A stretch of DNA of 64,000 nt. It comes from a virus. Under the pieces are notes generated by a model that saw only the letters and a program-made list of their open reading frames with translations, did no database searches and was not told where the DNA came from. This document shows, piece after piece, positions 4,114 through 43,182 of this stretch. The stretch is from positions 1 through 64,000 of IMG/VR virus record IMGVR_UViG_3300037882_004081; one strand, written 5' to 3'. The position numbers were made by a program, and so were the translations under genes. How positions within the stretch are numbered: the stretch's first letter is position 1; each line of letters begins with the position of its first letter.

Positions 4114-5763
4114 TTATGCGTCCGAGGTGCGGACCGCCGTGGCAGAACCCCCGGCGCTCCCAAGAGTACCAGGAGACTCGAAGGTTTTAATGGGAGTGAC
4201 GCCACCATCCCGGACCCGGATGAACAAGGAACGATCGCCCGAATAAACCGCCGTAAACGACTCAGAAGTCGATGTGGCCAGTTTATCGATGTACGAAATG
4301 AACACGTTTGCTCCATTGGCGGCGTTGTTCCCAGAAAAATTGTGGGAAGCGATCGTAAACGTGGAACCACTCCAAGCGCTGTACACATGTCGGGAATAAG
4401 CCCCGTTCGTCCTTAGGATTCGAATGGTGCCGGTACTCGGGGTATCCAGCGGGATGGAGCCCACGACCACCACGGAGGTGACTGCAGCGCCCGTCAACGC
4501 CCCGTCGAGGGTCATTTGATCGGTGTCGAGCAGACCACCATCCTCTGGACCAATCAGCACGTAGTCTTCACCACTCACGATACCACCGAGTGTAAAGGTA
4601 ACGTAGTTCGGTGCCTGATAAAGCGTGTTGGTGAGGTCGAACACCTTGTCGACCGACGACAGATCGGTCGCTTCCACGCCGAAACCATAGGCACCAACGA
4701 GGGAGGTGCCAGTGGAGGCTCCGCAGCATGGGGTTGAGACTGTCCTCTCGGTTACCGTCACGTTGACCTGACAAGTCGCCGTGGACGCGCCCGTAATTAA
4801 TTGGTTGTCGGTCGGTGCTACCCCGGTCAAGAGCTGAATCCACATCTTCGTGGCAGCGGTGGGGCTGTTGATGGCCAACAGTTGACCTGTACCGCCGCTC
4901 CACGACACCGCTTCGAAGGCAGAGAACGTGCCAGTTGGGCTGTCCACCGTGATTTCGTGAGTGATGCCCCTGAATAGCTGCCCAGCCAACCCAAAAAGGG
5001 TGGTGGTCTCACCGCGCCTCGTCAGGTACTTCAACCGCTCGTAGAACTGGTTTATGGTCGCAGTTCCACGGTTCCATTCGGAGTAGAAGAACTCGTCCGC
5101 CCCGTTGTTGTTGACGTCAATCCCGTTGTACCCGGCTGAAGTCAAGGAAACTGTGGTGAATGGGGAAGACGTAAGTGAACCAATAATGGTTTGGTTGTTC
5201 AGGTCGTCGGCCCAACCGGTGAACGCCATAACGTTGACGCCTCGCGCCGTACCGTTGATTTTGAACTCCAGGAACGCCTTTCCCCACTCCCGCGTTGTAC
5301 CAAGCAAGCGGCGACCGTCAATGTCGGCCCCACCCGTCCTGACCTTGGTCATGAACTGGTGGCTAATACCATTCGGTGCATCCGCGTTGAGACCAGTGGT
5401 CCAAAAATTGGGGGTGATCAGAGCACCATTTTGGATAATCTCTAGGCGCATCCCGGACGGTGCGAGGACCTGAATACCGTCGTAGATCACGTTGCCGGAG
5501 TCCTGAATGATCGATCCACCGTACAGGTGTTGTGCGGCGGTGTCATCAATGTTGAAACCGTTGATCAGGTTAATGATGGTGTCGAAGCTCTTGTCGGATG
5601 GCGTTTCCTTATCGATCGCCATCATGTCGTCACCACTGGATGACGGGTCATCCGCCAAGTCCTGCAGCCACCGGTGAAGTTCCAACACGGTATAGTTGGT
5701 GGTCGTCCCCGTGTACCGGATATCCTTGTCGGCTTGGATTTCGAAGTCCGTTGAAATTGGCAT
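4114..5763 (-). CDS. Tail-fibre-like protein, 549 aa
   Basis: The 549-aa protein starts at ATG 5763. Its N-terminus (residues about 20-85: TVLELHRWLQDLAD, then SSGDDMM, then NIDDTAAQHLYGGSIIQD) looks like an attachment domain, because a truncated copy of exactly this part is found at 10929-11159. The rest is beta-rich and Thr/Ser/Gly-rich, as in fibre or baseplate wedge proteins. It contains a paired cysteine (TPCCGAST). It lies in the virion gene run. Its exact position in the particle is unknown. Confidence 0.75.
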   Translation of the reverse strand: MPISTDFEIQADKDIRYTGTTTNYTVLELHRWLQDLADDPSSSGDDMMAIDKETPSDKSFDTIINLINGFNIDDTAAQHLYGGSIIQDSGNVIYDGIQVLAPSGMRLEIIQNGALITPNFWTTGLNADAPNGISHQFMTKVRTGGADIDGRRLLGTTREWGKAFLEFKINGTARGVNVMAFTGWADDLNNQTIIGSLTSSPFTTVSLTSAGYNGIDVNNNGADEFFYSEWNRGTATINQFYERLKYLTRRGETTTLFGLAGQLFRGITHEITVDSPTGTFSAFEAVSWSGGTGQLLAINSPTAATKMWIQLLTGVAPTDNQLITGASTATCQVNVTVTERTVSTPCCGASTGTSLVGAYGFGVEATDLSSVDKVFDLTNTLYQAPNYVTFTLGGIVSGEDYVLIGPEDGGLLDTDQMTLDGALTGAAVTSVVVVGSIPLDTPSTGTIRILRTNGAYSRHVYSAWSGSTFTIASHNFSGNNAANGANVFISYIDKLATSTSESFTAVYSGDRSLFIRVRDGGVTPIKTFESPGTLGSAGGSATAVRTSDA

Positions 5764-9646: not shown

Positions 9647-9675
9647 ATTATAACACGGGGAACGACTTTTGTCAA
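9647..9675 (-). promoter_or_regulatory. Consensus promoter P1 (leaderless)
   Basis: TTGACA at 9670-9675, 17-base spacer, TATAAT at 9647-9652 with TG one base upstream (extended -10). Five bases separate the -10 box from ATG 9641, so no 5' leader is expected. Confidence 0.9.
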
Positions 9676-10928: not shown

Positions 10929-11159
10929 TCAATGATCTTGCTTATCATCCTGAATAATCGATCCCTCGTACAGAAGAGCTGCTGACGTATCATCAACGCT
11001 GTACCCGTTCAGAGTGATGATTCTGTCAGACGGGGTGCCCATATTGATAACCATGTCTTCCCCAGACTTCGATGCTTCATCAGCAACGTTTTGCAACCAG
11101 CGGAGCATTTCAAAAATAGTGACGCTTTCGCGGTGGGCGTTGATGTCTCCTGGAGTCAT
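10929..11159 (-). pseudogene. Truncated paralogue of the 549-aa fibre protein N-terminus, 76 aa
   Basis: The intact frame from ATG 11159 gives 76 residues that align with residues about 24-90 of the 549-aa protein at 4114-5763: EMLRWLQNVADE against ELHRWLQDLADD, SGEDMV against SGDDMM, and VDDTSAALLYEGSIIQDD against IDDTAAQHLYGGSIIQDS. It ends a few residues later. It is either a decayed fragment or a deliberately short protein that shares the attachment domain. It sits beside the tRNA-like remnant, a common place for insertion or deletion. Confidence 0.75.
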
Positions 11160-11162
11160 AGG

Positions 11163-11963
11163 CTACATAGTGGACTGTTTGACGAACTCAGCGAGGTCGG
11201 GGTGAACGACCACCAAATCTGAAACGGGTAACAAAGGGTATGGGATCGGGGTTGAAAGACGGGCCAGCTTGATCCGGTTGCCGTTGATTTCGGTTTCGAT
11301 GATTTCCAGGACCTTCGCGTGGACGTCACCAGTGCCTAACTGATGGCGCACCGAAGATCCAATCAGCACGGGCTCTGGCTGTTTGGGGGCCTTGGCGGCG
11401 TACCGCTCGTTCCGGATGAACGTGACCCGCTCATACGTTTTTTTCTCGTCCAGCGTGACCACCAATCGGCTGAACCCTTCCCAGCTGGACGTGATGTACC
11501 CGGTGGTGGCATGCTCCACGTAACCGCAGAGCCGAAAGTGCGCGGTGATGTAGTCGAGGACGACCGAAGACATCTTGGACAACTTTTCGATCGAGTAAAT
11601 GAACATCGAGATTTCCTGCAGCCAGCACTCGTGGGCGTTGTCGGGAATGTTAAAGATGGCGCTTCCCGAGATGTTGGATGGGACGTTCCAAGTCGTTGGT
11701 ACCCGAGTGTTGTTCTTGGCGGACTCCCAGCCATCTTCGGTCAACCCCGGCTGGGTTGGAGTCTTGCGGATCGCCTCCACTTTCTCGTCATAGGAGTTTT
11801 CGAGCACCGCGAACCCATCGTCCTTGGTCACCCACGCCCAATCGCTGCAGCTAATCATGCACAGGAAGAGGTGCATGTCGGTCGGGTACAGGCACGGGTA
11901 GTGCATGCGAAGCCGCTTGATCGTCCGTTCTGCGTGGTTGAGTTCCTTGGTTTCTTTCGCCAT
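11163..11963 (-). CDS. Leaderless unknown protein, 266 aa
   Basis: ATG 11963 lies six bases after a TATAGT -10 box. The protein begins MAKETKELNHAERTIKRL, then an aromatic helical part with cysteines (LFLCMISCSDWAWV), a central region (WLQEISMFIYSIEKLSKMSSVVLD is helical), and a C-terminal small beta domain ending in a hydrophobic VSDLVVVHPDLAEF. No family is recognised. The reading frame continues open upstream through the promoter into a zinc-ribbon module (see next entry). Confidence 0.8.
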   Translation of the reverse strand: MAKETKELNHAERTIKRLRMHYPCLYPTDMHLFLCMISCSDWAWVTKDDGFAVLENSYDEKVEAIRKTPTQPGLTEDGWESAKNNTRVPTTWNVPSNISGSAIFNIPDNAHECWLQEISMFIYSIEKLSKMSSVVLDYITAHFRLCGYVEHATTGYITSSWEGFSRLVVTLDEKKTYERVTFIRNERYAAKAPKQPEPVLIGSSVRHQLGTGDVHAKVLEIIETEINGNRIKLARLSTPIPYPLLPVSDLVVVHPDLAEFVKQSTM

Positions 11964-12173
11964 GTTACCACTATAACACATAGATGGGGCTTTGTCAAGT
12001 ATGCCACATTTTTTGCAGGTGGTCCTCCGTTTGTGCCCTAGGAAACTGTGACCGCACTTTCGGCAGGCGTTGAAGTAGTTGCCGTTCTCAAGGTGGGCAT
12101 CTTCGGGCCAGTTCCGATCGGACTCAAGGAGTTGCAGCGCCGGAACAGTGGCGCGGCGAAGTTGGGTTGACAT
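11163..12173 (-). CDS. Zinc-ribbon module reading in frame into the leaderless gene, 336 aa if fused
   Basis: From ATG 12173 (MSTQLRRATVPAL) a 56-residue module carries C37-x2-C40 and C53-x2-C56 around the phrase FLGHKRR, a small zinc-ribbon type common as a free-standing phage protein. No stop codon follows. The frame runs through the -35 and -10 boxes and into the 266-aa gene at residue 71. Either ribosomes make a 336-aa fusion from upstream mRNA and a 266-aa form from the internal promoter, or the zinc-ribbon gene has lost its stop. Confidence 0.6.
   Translation of the reverse strand: MSTQLRRATVPALQLLESDRNWPEDAHLENGNYFNACRKCGHSFLGHKRRTTCKKCGILDKAPSMCYSGNMAKETKELNHAERTIKRLRMHYPCLYPTDMHLFLCMISCSDWAWVTKDDGFAVLENSYDEKVEAIRKTPTQPGLTEDGWESAKNNTRVPTTWNVPSNISGSAIFNIPDNAHECWLQEISMFIYSIEKLSKMSSVVLDYITAHFRLCGYVEHATTGYITSSWEGFSRLVVTLDEKKTYERVTFIRNERYAAKAPKQPEPVLIGSSVRHQLGTGDVHAKVLEIIETEINGNRIKLARLSTPIPYPLLPVSDLVVVHPDLAEFVKQSTM
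11970..11998 (-). promoter_or_regulatory. Consensus promoter P2 (leaderless, inside an open frame)
   Basis: TTGACA at 11993-11998, 17-base spacer, TATAGT at 11970-11975 with extended TG. The gap to ATG 11963 is six bases, which keeps the TGA of TTGACA out of the gene's frame. Confidence 0.9.
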
Positions 12174-12189
12174 ACCCCACCAGAACGAT

Positions 12190-12312
12190 CTATCCGCGTG
12201 GATTTTGGCTGTGAGCAATTGCCCACGCTACCAGCACGACTGCCCAGAACAGCACTATCCCAACAACGACGAGCGGGGATTCAAGGTCAACGCTTAGGTC
12301 CAGCCCCTTCAT
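12190..12312 (-). CDS. Single-pass membrane microprotein, 40 aa
   Basis: A 40-codon frame from ATG 12312 overlaps the stop of the upstream 209-aa gene by one base (TAATG). It encodes a short acidic head (MKGLDLSVDLESP), one membrane segment of about 20 residues (LVVVGIVLFWAVVLVAWAIA) and a short tail (HSQNPRG). The zinc-ribbon ATG follows 17 bases after its stop. Small single-pass proteins of this type in phages can be holins, pinholins or exclusion factors; nothing here decides which. Confidence 0.7.
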   Translation of the reverse strand: MKGLDLSVDLESPLVVVGIVLFWAVVLVAWAIAHSQNPRG

Positions 12313-12941
12313 TAGGTTCGGATGGACCAAAGGAACGACAGGGACTGTCCTGGGCGTTTCACTACCCCAACCATGGCCTTGCGGGCAAAGAGAGTACCGT
12401 TGGAGGTCCAGAGACCCATCTCGCGGATTGTCTGGGCATTGGCCTCACTCGACGCGAGGTTGCATTCAAACCGGACGATAAACGACTGGGGATAGTCAAC
12501 TCGTGAAATCGGCTTGAGGAAGTCGGTGCCGTTGTACGCGATCATGTTGCCTCCACCTGCCGTAACGTCGGTGGGTTGTGGGGAAAGCGAAGAATCGGTG
12601 AAACGGGGAGCTTCGTCATATCGTCCCCAACTCACCTTCGTCACCACCCATGGGCTGGCCGATCCCGAAAACACGTCCCGGTTGCCCAGCAGATTGGCAA
12701 TAGTCTGGCGACCAAGGTTGACGACGAGGTTTTCACCGATCGCCACCCCACCACCCTCTGGCTTCGCGTACTTCCCAGCAATGCGGCGAGCGACAGCGAG
12801 ATTTTCGAAGACTCCAGCACTGAACGGATCGAGCACGTTGCCAGCTTCGTCCTTCACGGTCATCACGAGGTCGCCAAGGGGTCTCCCGGCCTTCCCGTCT
12901 GGTCCATAGAGGACCGGGTCAATGCTTGCAACGTCGTTCAT
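12312..12941 (-). CDS. Putative virion protein, 209 aa
   Basis: The 209-aa protein starts at ATG 12941, three bases after TTATC (a TAnnTATC-type start). It contains VVNLGRQTIANLLGN, a SWGRYDEAPRFTDSS stretch and a C-terminal IREMGLWTSNGTLFARK, a pattern I associate with tail-fibre or baseplate-associated proteins (EIGLFTADGTLFA-like ending). The family assignment is by resemblance only. Confidence 0.6.
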   Translation of the reverse strand: MNDVASIDPVLYGPDGKAGRPLGDLVMTVKDEAGNVLDPFSAGVFENLAVARRIAGKYAKPEGGGVAIGENLVVNLGRQTIANLLGNRDVFSGSASPWVVTKVSWGRYDEAPRFTDSSLSPQPTDVTAGGGNMIAYNGTDFLKPISRVDYPQSFIVRFECNLASSEANAQTIREMGLWTSNGTLFARKAMVGVVKRPGQSLSFLWSIRT

Positions 12942-12957
12942 CAGGATAAGTAACCCG

Positions 12958-13224
12958 TCACCACCCCATCAGCTTGGCGGTGTCAGGGAGAAGGATAGCG
13001 AGCATCCTGCGGAAGCCACCTGGATTCACCTCCGGGCACAGGCGCGAGAACGCTTTCCACTTGTCGTCCTGTTCTTTGACGACTGCAGCAACCGCCGAAT
13101 CAGACTTGGCACCGCGAGCCTTCGATTTGGTGGTGATTTCTTTGACGCACTCGTGGAACAGCATCTTGATGGTGCTGGTGGTCGGCGCGGCACGGTATCG
13201 GTCCGCCATCTCTTTGGCTTTCAT
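12958..13224 (-). CDS. Small basic protein, 88 aa
   Basis: ATG 13224 overlaps the upstream stop as ATGA, and an upstream GTG at 13257 is not needed. The protein is helical and Lys-rich in the middle (ECVKEITTKSKARGAKSD). No family is recognised. It ends 16 bases before the next gene of the run. Confidence 0.65.
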   Translation of the reverse strand: MKAKEMADRYRAAPTTSTIKMLFHECVKEITTKSKARGAKSDSAVAAVVKEQDDKWKAFSRLCPEVNPGGFRRMLAILLPDTAKLMGW

Positions 13225-13721
13225 GGATCGGTGTGAAGTAGCGGCAGCGGCTTCCACTGATACCGCGGGTTGTTGGGCTCCCCAAAGCTGTGTCCGGGTA
13301 TGTAAGCGACGTTGACCCGGTATGGTGGTTCCATGGTGGCACTCGGGTAGATGGACTCTCCGAACTCCCGCTTACCCACTTCACGCACCATGATTGGGGT
13401 TCCATCGTCGTGAGTCCCACCATACACCAGTGACCTGCCCTTGTAATAGAAGAAGTATTGGCCGTTGATTTCAACGCCAAGTTCTCCGGAGTCATTCACC
13501 ACCCATCGCACGTCGTCATCGGTCAGCTTTCCTGGCACATGCTCGACGACCTTCACGGTCCGTCGTTGTTTGTGGAACTCGTCAAGGGGTCGGAACGCCC
13601 TGACGTGCCACCACCCAGCCAGTTTGGCCAGCCACCTCCACCGGTATTTGCCAAGTTCAAAGTCGCTGCCGCTTTCACCGTAGATCAGCCCAAGGTCAAC
13701 TAAAACAGAGTAGCGCTTCAT
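13221..13721 (-). CDS. Unknown protein, 166 aa
   Basis: The longest frame starts farther upstream, but ATG 13721 (MKRYSVLVDLGLIYGE) overlaps the preceding stop as ATGA. A Trp-rich basic part (KYRWRWLAKLAGWWHV) is followed by an acidic beta-type part. No known motif is seen. Confidence 0.65.
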   Translation of the reverse strand: MKRYSVLVDLGLIYGESGSDFELGKYRWRWLAKLAGWWHVRAFRPLDEFHKQRRTVKVVEHVPGKLTDDDVRWVVNDSGELGVEINGQYFFYYKGRSLVYGGTHDDGTPIMVREVGKREFGESIYPSATMEPPYRVNVAYIPGHSFGEPNNPRYQWKPLPLLHTDP

Positions 13722-14152
13722 GCTTTGTTCCAGAAAGAGGGGTCGTACCCGGCTTGCTGAGCAATCTGCCCGCACAATTTTGCGTGGTGATCGGCAACCA
13801 TCTTCGGGTCCCACCCCTTGCCGTCACCGATATCGATCGAGACCTCAATGAGACGGTCCTTGAGGTCAGCAATGCTTCGTGCCAAATATGGGGAACGGAA
13901 GTCTGGTTCATACCCCATTCCTTCTAGAACGACACGAGTAGCATCAAACAGCCATGATAAGTGGTTTCCACGGTCGTTCACCTGTTTACCCTGCTTCACC
14001 ACCAGTTCCCACTCGTCGGGATTGGTGAGGTCGTAAGTCATGACGGCGGTCACGCGACCCCCATAGTTGGCGGTCACGACGGCGGTATTTCCACCGATTT
14101 GGCTGCGGACGATGTCGCCCGCCTCCAGGGTTTTGAATGATTCTGGTCTCAT
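13718..14152 (-). CDS. Unknown protein, 144 aa
   Basis: The start taken is ATG 14152 (MRPESFKTLEAGDIVRSQIGG). The first 60 residues look like a small beta-barrel (GDIVRSQIGGNTAVVTANYGGRVTAV), as in KOW- or SH3-like folds. The rest is helical with ADHHAKLCGQIAQQ. It is part of the operon started by promoter P3. No family is recognised. Confidence 0.65.
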   Translation of the reverse strand: MRPESFKTLEAGDIVRSQIGGNTAVVTANYGGRVTAVMTYDLTNPDEWELVVKQGKQVNDRGNHLSWLFDATRVVLEGMGYEPDFRSPYLARSIADLKDRLIEVSIDIGDGKGWDPKMVADHHAKLCGQIAQQAGYDPSFWNKA

Positions 14153-14160
14153 AGTTGGTA

Positions 14161-14526
14161 TTAGATGGTTTCGCCGATCATGATTGGTCCGGCGATGTCC
14201 GAAACGCACAGTTCGATGGCTTTATTGTAGGTGGCAAGGCCACTGGCCTTGGCGGACTCTGCGTCCTCAACGGCGAGGTGGTCAGCCCAGCAAATGGGCA
14301 GGTCGAACGTGAGCTTGGTCGAGTGGTGCGAATCCGACACGAAAAAATCAGCGGTCCAACCGCAGGACTCATCGAAGTCCTCGTTGACTTCCACGACCAG
14401 CAACCCAGCACTATCGAACGAGACTTCCTGAATCCACTCCCCCGGAATCCGCGTGTAACCCGAAGCGTAGGCAACGGCGACACTGTGGAGGACTTCGAGG
14501 TTGTTTGGGAAATGGACTGCGTTCAT
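14161..14526 (-). CDS. Leaderless unknown protein, 121 aa
   Basis: ATG 14526 lies six bases after a TATAGT box. The protein is acidic (VEVNEDFDESCGW) with a mixed fold and no recognisable motif. Three further genes follow closely with overlaps, so it heads a four-gene operon. Confidence 0.8.
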   Translation of the reverse strand: MNAVHFPNNLEVLHSVAVAYASGYTRIPGEWIQEVSFDSAGLLVVEVNEDFDESCGWTADFFVSDSHHSTKLTFDLPICWADHLAVEDAESAKASGLATYNKAIELCVSDIAGPIMIGETI

Positions 14527-14532
14527 GGTGTA

Positions 14533-14561
14533 ACTATAACACACAAACGGAGCTTTGTCAA
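14533..14561 (-). promoter_or_regulatory. Consensus promoter P3 (leaderless; -35 holds the pyrE stop)
   Basis: TTGACA at 14556-14561, 17-base spacer, TATAGT at 14533-14538 with extended TG. The gap to ATG 14526 is six bases. The TGA inside TTGACA (14558-14560) is the pyrE stop codon. Confidence 0.9.
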
Positions 14562-43153: not shown

Positions 43154-43182
43154 ATTATACCACACCTTTGTACGTTTGTCAA
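43154..43182 (-). promoter_or_regulatory. Consensus promoter P11 (with leader and an AUG-UAG start-stop)
   Basis: TTGACA at 43177-43182, 17-base spacer, TATAAT at 43154-43159 with TGG before it. Four bases below the -10 box is ATG directly followed by TAG (43144-43149), at the place where leaderless genes start. The true start is ATG 43103. Confidence 0.9.

Follow-up and report, generated by a model that had tools for sequence, protein, structure and literature searches.

We analysed a gene junction in the genome of an uncultivated phage, where a small zinc-ribbon reading frame continues without a stop through a promoter and into a protein of 266 amino acids (aa). The window, meaning the whole stretch of DNA analysed, comprises bases 1-64000 of a 102,728-base IMG/VR virus record (IMGVR_UViG_3300037882_004081). 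PHROG matches to a T4-like baseplate hub, baseplate wedge, portal, DNA polymerase, primase, helicases and a UvsX-like recombinase identify the record as a large, divergent tailed phage. Codon-by-codon reading of the minus strand from 12173 to 11163 gave a single open frame of 336 codons, which begins with the ATG at 12173 and whose stop ends at 11163. Cysteines at codons 37, 40, 53 and 56 form the two pairs of a Cys4 zinc-ribbon (C37-x2-C40 and C53-x2-C56). The last of these codons ends 7 bases 5' of TTGACA, so that the module abuts the -35 box. From there the frame reads GGC ATA CTT GAC AAA GCC CCA TCT ATG TGT TAT AGT GGT AAC ATG, of which the last codon is Met71 (11963); a second in-frame ATG, Met65 (11981), lies within the promoter spacer. 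An earlier sequence-only reading had described a zinc-ribbon frame running through the -35 and -10 boxes into the 266-aa open reading frame (ORF), and every detail of that description was confirmed, with correct coordinates and the gene on the minus strand. The features of the locus are as follows.

11163..12173, minus strand: continuous open frame encoding the long form, 336 aa, with its ATG start at 12173 (codon reading)
12006..12173, minus strand: zinc-ribbon module, codons 1-56, phrog_8931-like, with Cys 37, 40, 53 and 56 (homology)
11964..12005, minus strand: 14-codon linker GILDKAPSMCYSGN, codons 57-70, without a stop, coded almost entirely by promoter DNA (TTGACA-17-TATAGT plus six bases)
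11993..11998, minus strand: -35 box TTGACA, read in the ORF frame as (C)TT GAC A(AA)
11970..11975, minus strand: -10 box TATAGT, read in the ORF frame as TAT AGT, with TGTGT just 5' of it
11163..11963, minus strand: 266-aa ORF, the putative short form, an orphan whose ATG at 11963 lies six bases past the -10 box
14524..14561, minus strand: next upstream promoter, of similar kind, with a 6-base gap to the ATG at 14526; candidate source of operon mRNA across the zinc-ribbon
12190..14526, minus strand: contiguous same-strand ORFs (121, 144, 166, 88, 209 and 40 aa) between the 14561 promoter and the zinc-ribbon

The junction promoter consists of TTGACA, a 17-base spacer and TATAGT (11998..11970), followed after 6 bases by the ATG; it matches the consensus at 11 of 12 positions and carries the TGTGT extension. 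It belongs to a set. The pattern TTGACA-N15-19-TATART-N3-12-ATG has 8 matches in the window and 9 in the full record, against none in 100 shuffles of the window. These promoters lie at 9675, 11998, 14561, 22417, 23633, 27459, 27918 and 41389 (-) of the window and at 81607 (+) of the record, each with an ATG 5-7 bases past the -10 box. Allowing slightly looser -10 boxes gave 14 promoters in 102.7 kb, eight of which have the ATG exactly 5 or 6 bases past the -10, and a record-wide consensus of AC-TTGACAA-N11-TGTGT-TATA(A/G)T-N5/6-ATG. TATA(A/G)T itself is found only 17 times on both strands of the 102.7 kb, about half of them in the promoters described here. At 43182 (-) a similar promoter precedes an ATG four bases past its -10 box, which is directly followed by TAG to give a one-codon ORF. 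Scanning viral contigs with the consensus returned 37 stretches, and two other contigs are rich in copies (IMGVR_UViG_3300037882_003336 and IMGVR_UViG_3300030329_002967), with 9 in one and 26 raw pattern matches, corresponding to fewer distinct promoters, in the other. The first of these contigs has the same guanine-plus-cytosine content and promoter type as the studied record, and almost no proteins in common with it.

TA (-10-like) signals ~12 bp upstream of the start codon are a mark of leaderless genes in bacteria (PMC3160421). The phage promoters share with them a -10 box about 12 bases 5' of the start, but also possess full TTGACA boxes and the TGTGT extension. The 6-base gap before 11963 falls within the 5-7 bases of leaderless-gene spacing, at which a transcript can begin on the ATG itself. 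A class of leaderless genes in this contig is thus well supported by the promoter pattern, and the promoter of the short form is a credible leaderless promoter, which would be active inside the frame and yield an mRNA translated without a leader. It is conceivable that the promoter match is unused and that only the 336-aa fusion is made, as fusions of this zinc-ribbon are common; given the near-complete consensus match, the extension and the membership of a set placed at start codons far beyond chance, we regard this as extremely unlikely.

The 266-aa frame is genuinely coding-like. Codons 71-336 have a codon signal of 0.16, equal to that of phage genes (0.136 for known ones), while the other frames score about -0.29. 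Immediately downstream, a 76-aa ORF (10929-11159, minus strand) adjoins the gene; it is 55% identical to residues 25-88 of a 549-aa ORF (4114-5763) and represents a truncated paralog.

The zinc-ribbon matches phrog_8931 (E-value 1.7e-10 over 39 residues) and is 68% identical to a stand-alone phage protein. Codons 1-56 carry the same motif as phrog_8931 proteins (RNWPEDFxHENGNYxxxCxxCxxxFxGHKRRxxCKxC), with the two CxxC pairs set within W-E-D, ENGNY and GHKRR, and the module retains all four cysteines and the invariant W22, E24, G46 and K48-R49-R50. Stand-alone members, of about 60 aa, end 7-22 aa past the last cysteine; the studied module, in contrast, has no stop before codon 337 and is directly followed by the promoter. 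A scan with a four-member alignment recovered 27 viral loci. In about half of these the frame ends 7-22 aa past the last cysteine; in about half it extends a further 41-187 aa, and the module sometimes sits in the middle of the protein. One fusion partner shows similarity to the Lar restriction alleviation protein, scoring under the curated threshold for it. Given that about half of the relatives are fused, stand-alone status does not define the module and fusion is ordinary for it. The sequence-only reading had proposed a search for relatives in which the zinc-ribbon has its own stop or is fused; as both kinds occur in similar number, the search neither refutes nor proves the readthrough idea. 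That the zinc-ribbon tethers the protein to DNA or RNA, as was also suggested, found no support. Two paralogous small Cys-rich ORFs (SRQ-LRQRQL-GKC-x2-C ... C-x2-C; window 22034 (-) and record 68503 (-)) are unlike the 12065 zinc-ribbon.

The gap between the -10 box and the ATG sets the frame in which a promoter of this kind would be read. If the spacer has 17 bases and the gap 5, the TGA of TTGACA is in frame with the ATG and the -10 box (TATAAT or TATAGT) adds an in-frame TAA or TAG, resulting in a double block. In simulations no promoter with a 5-base gap was open throughout (0%), compared with 83% of those with a 6-base gap. This bears out the earlier proposal that a 5-base gap cuts readthrough and a 6-base gap permits it. 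We also surveyed 42 promoter/gene pairs with gaps of 5-7 bases from this and other viral contigs: all 21 with gap 5 were closed, and 14 of the 20 with gap 6 were open through the -35 box. Since a 6-base gap leaves the frame open by default, the open frame is no sign of selection, and the view that it is a special feature does not hold. An upstream in-frame ORF of at least 40 codons was present in only one of the 42 pairs, the zinc-ribbon junction, so that, in this small survey, no other pair combined an open frame with a genuine module upstream. The idea of readthrough as a recurring strategy was considered and rejected, there being no second case.

These results bear on whether the locus is a selected two-form gene, with a 336-aa form made from operon mRNA and a 266-aa form made from the internal leaderless promoter, at differing times and with differing targets, like T7 gp4 or VirF. 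The virF gene of Shigella does yield a short form from a leaderless mRNA via a gene-internal promoter (PMC5101355), and fusions of the zinc-ribbon to other phage protein sequences are frequent. Set against this are the default openness of 6-base gaps, the single case among the surveyed pairs and the failure to find a relative of the 266-aa part by which conservation could be judged, and we consider selection for two forms unproven and unlikely.

The promoter before 14526 also has a 6-base gap and, as the sequence-only reading had said, a different layout upstream. Its frame is open for 36 codons upstream, yet the real upstream gene, pyrE, uses a different frame, and its stop codon is the TGA within the TTGACA of the 14561 promoter (14558-14561, minus strand). 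This overlap is also seen at other promoters of the record and in a second contig. Upstream genes often terminate close to TTGACA, at about -8 to +1 with respect to it, and several do so on its TGA, which makes the zinc-ribbon an exception. This pattern raises the question of an insertion or deletion introduced by assembly or sequencing, in which case the real zinc-ribbon gene would end, like pyrE, on the TGA within TTGACA, and the contig would conceal that stop through a frame error. However, both CxxC pairs share one frame, which confines any such error to the few free bases past codon 56, and no homopolymer lies there (an A6 run precedes Cys56). We therefore judge an error of this kind very unlikely.

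Same-strand ORFs run uninterrupted from the 14561 leaderless promoter to the zinc-ribbon, which makes upstream transcription, and with it operon read-in across the zinc-ribbon, plausible. Shine-Dalgarno-like pairing at the ATG of 12173 is fairly strong (-6.1 kcal/mol, against a background 10th percentile of -6.2) and the best among the starts of the gene run, and the ATG at 11963 has none (-2.8). Most starts in the run are devoid of a Shine-Dalgarno-like match (12941, 14152, 13224 and 11159, minus strand), an indication that the host makes little use of Shine-Dalgarno sequences. As there is no stop between the modules, use of the ATG at 12173 must lead to the 336-aa product. The proposal that one locus makes a long and a short form stands as regards architecture, promoter class, zinc-ribbon homology and coding signal, but actual production of both forms is not supported; two-form expression is possible but unproven. 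The architecture is real, and its earlier interpretation is partly supported.

The zinc-ribbon has a codon signal of -0.02, within the lowest 3% of in-frame windows yet above 99.8% of off-frame windows. Weak codon usage could be expected of a recently gained module. It would also suit a scenario in which only the 266-aa protein matters and the zinc-ribbon survives as a remnant, decaying or silent, its stop lost when a promoter-gene unit settled at its end; the absence of the short tail that stand-alone relatives carry past Cys56, with the promoter directly 3', points the same way. Decay, however, sits poorly with the intact cysteines and invariant residues and with a start whose Shine-Dalgarno-like match is the strongest in the run, and we find a remnant distinctly unlikely.

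Our preferred explanation, which we hold to be probable though far from certain, is that the locus is a nested in-frame gene junction in a compact phage genome. The leaderless promoter would drive the 266-aa protein, with the zinc-ribbon as the last reading frame before that promoter in the gene run from 14561, and a ribosome starting on the zinc-ribbon in operon mRNA would make the 336-aa fusion. The existence of stand-alone relatives, together with the missing short tail, suggests that a promoter-gene unit arrived at the zinc-ribbon end. In the simplest history, a promoter-plus-gene unit would have come to rest at the 3' end of the zinc-ribbon gene, the short tail and stop would have been lost, and the 6-base gap would have kept the frame open. 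Compact gene packing and a permissive gap can explain the junction.

Two observations weigh against this explanation. No relative of the 266-aa part was detected in collections of viral contigs, genome contigs or phages, nor in 34 records of the same promoter type, and single-sequence AlphaFold2 models were unusable (predicted local distance difference test scores of 33 and 31), leaving an orphan without a usable fold prediction. Weak terminator-like hairpins (14363-14351 and 12349-12337), no more frequent than expected by chance, lie between 14561 and the zinc-ribbon. 

Searches for family membership found nothing at E<0.01 in Pfam or PHROG for the 266-aa part and no NCBIfam match for the 336-aa protein; a phrog_23280 match to the 266-aa part (E-value 0.012) was too weak and was not used. 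Sister phages sought through the DHH protein, LigA, UvsX and baseplate proteins gave distant matches or none, and no tRNA genes were found that could hint at the host.

Each half of the proposed mechanism has a precedent. T7 gene 4 produces 63 kDa and 56 kDa forms, with an N-terminal zinc-binding domain and an in-frame internal start (PMC9198812), an arrangement that the phage locus resembles. In T7, however, the short form (gp4B, as opposed to gp4A) arises by alternative translation initiation, whereas here it would need an internal promoter and a leaderless mRNA; the body of gp4 is a primase-helicase, whereas the 266-aa body is an orphan in which no primase or helicase similarity was detected. 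The likeness to VirF30/VirF21 of Shigella lies in an internal promoter within the coding frame, with a transcript starting at or next to an in-frame ATG, which would give an N-terminally shortened protein. VirF is, in contrast, a cellular AraC-like regulator without a zinc-ribbon, and its two forms were proven by mutagenesis, Northern blot and toeprinting, whereas those of the phage locus are predicted from sequence. By analogy, the locus may work like gp4 or VirF, and is a member of neither family. In the fullest version of this mechanism the internal leaderless promoter doubles as a translated linker, with a zinc-ribbon-tethered protein coming from operon mRNA and an untethered one from the internal promoter, which the 6-base gap allows and a 5-base gap would prevent by forcing two stops; we view this as possible but doubtful.

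If both forms are made, the locus would be a phage case that joins the zinc-domain long and short forms of T7 gp4 with the VirF-like production of a leaderless short form from an internal promoter. A simple rule would emerge as well: the gap between promoter and ATG, taken modulo 3, decides whether a leaderless promoter insulates its gene from upstream translation (a gap of 5) or permits fusion (a gap of 6). The wider class of leaderless promoters, here and in other uncultivated phages, may be of greater importance than the single junction.
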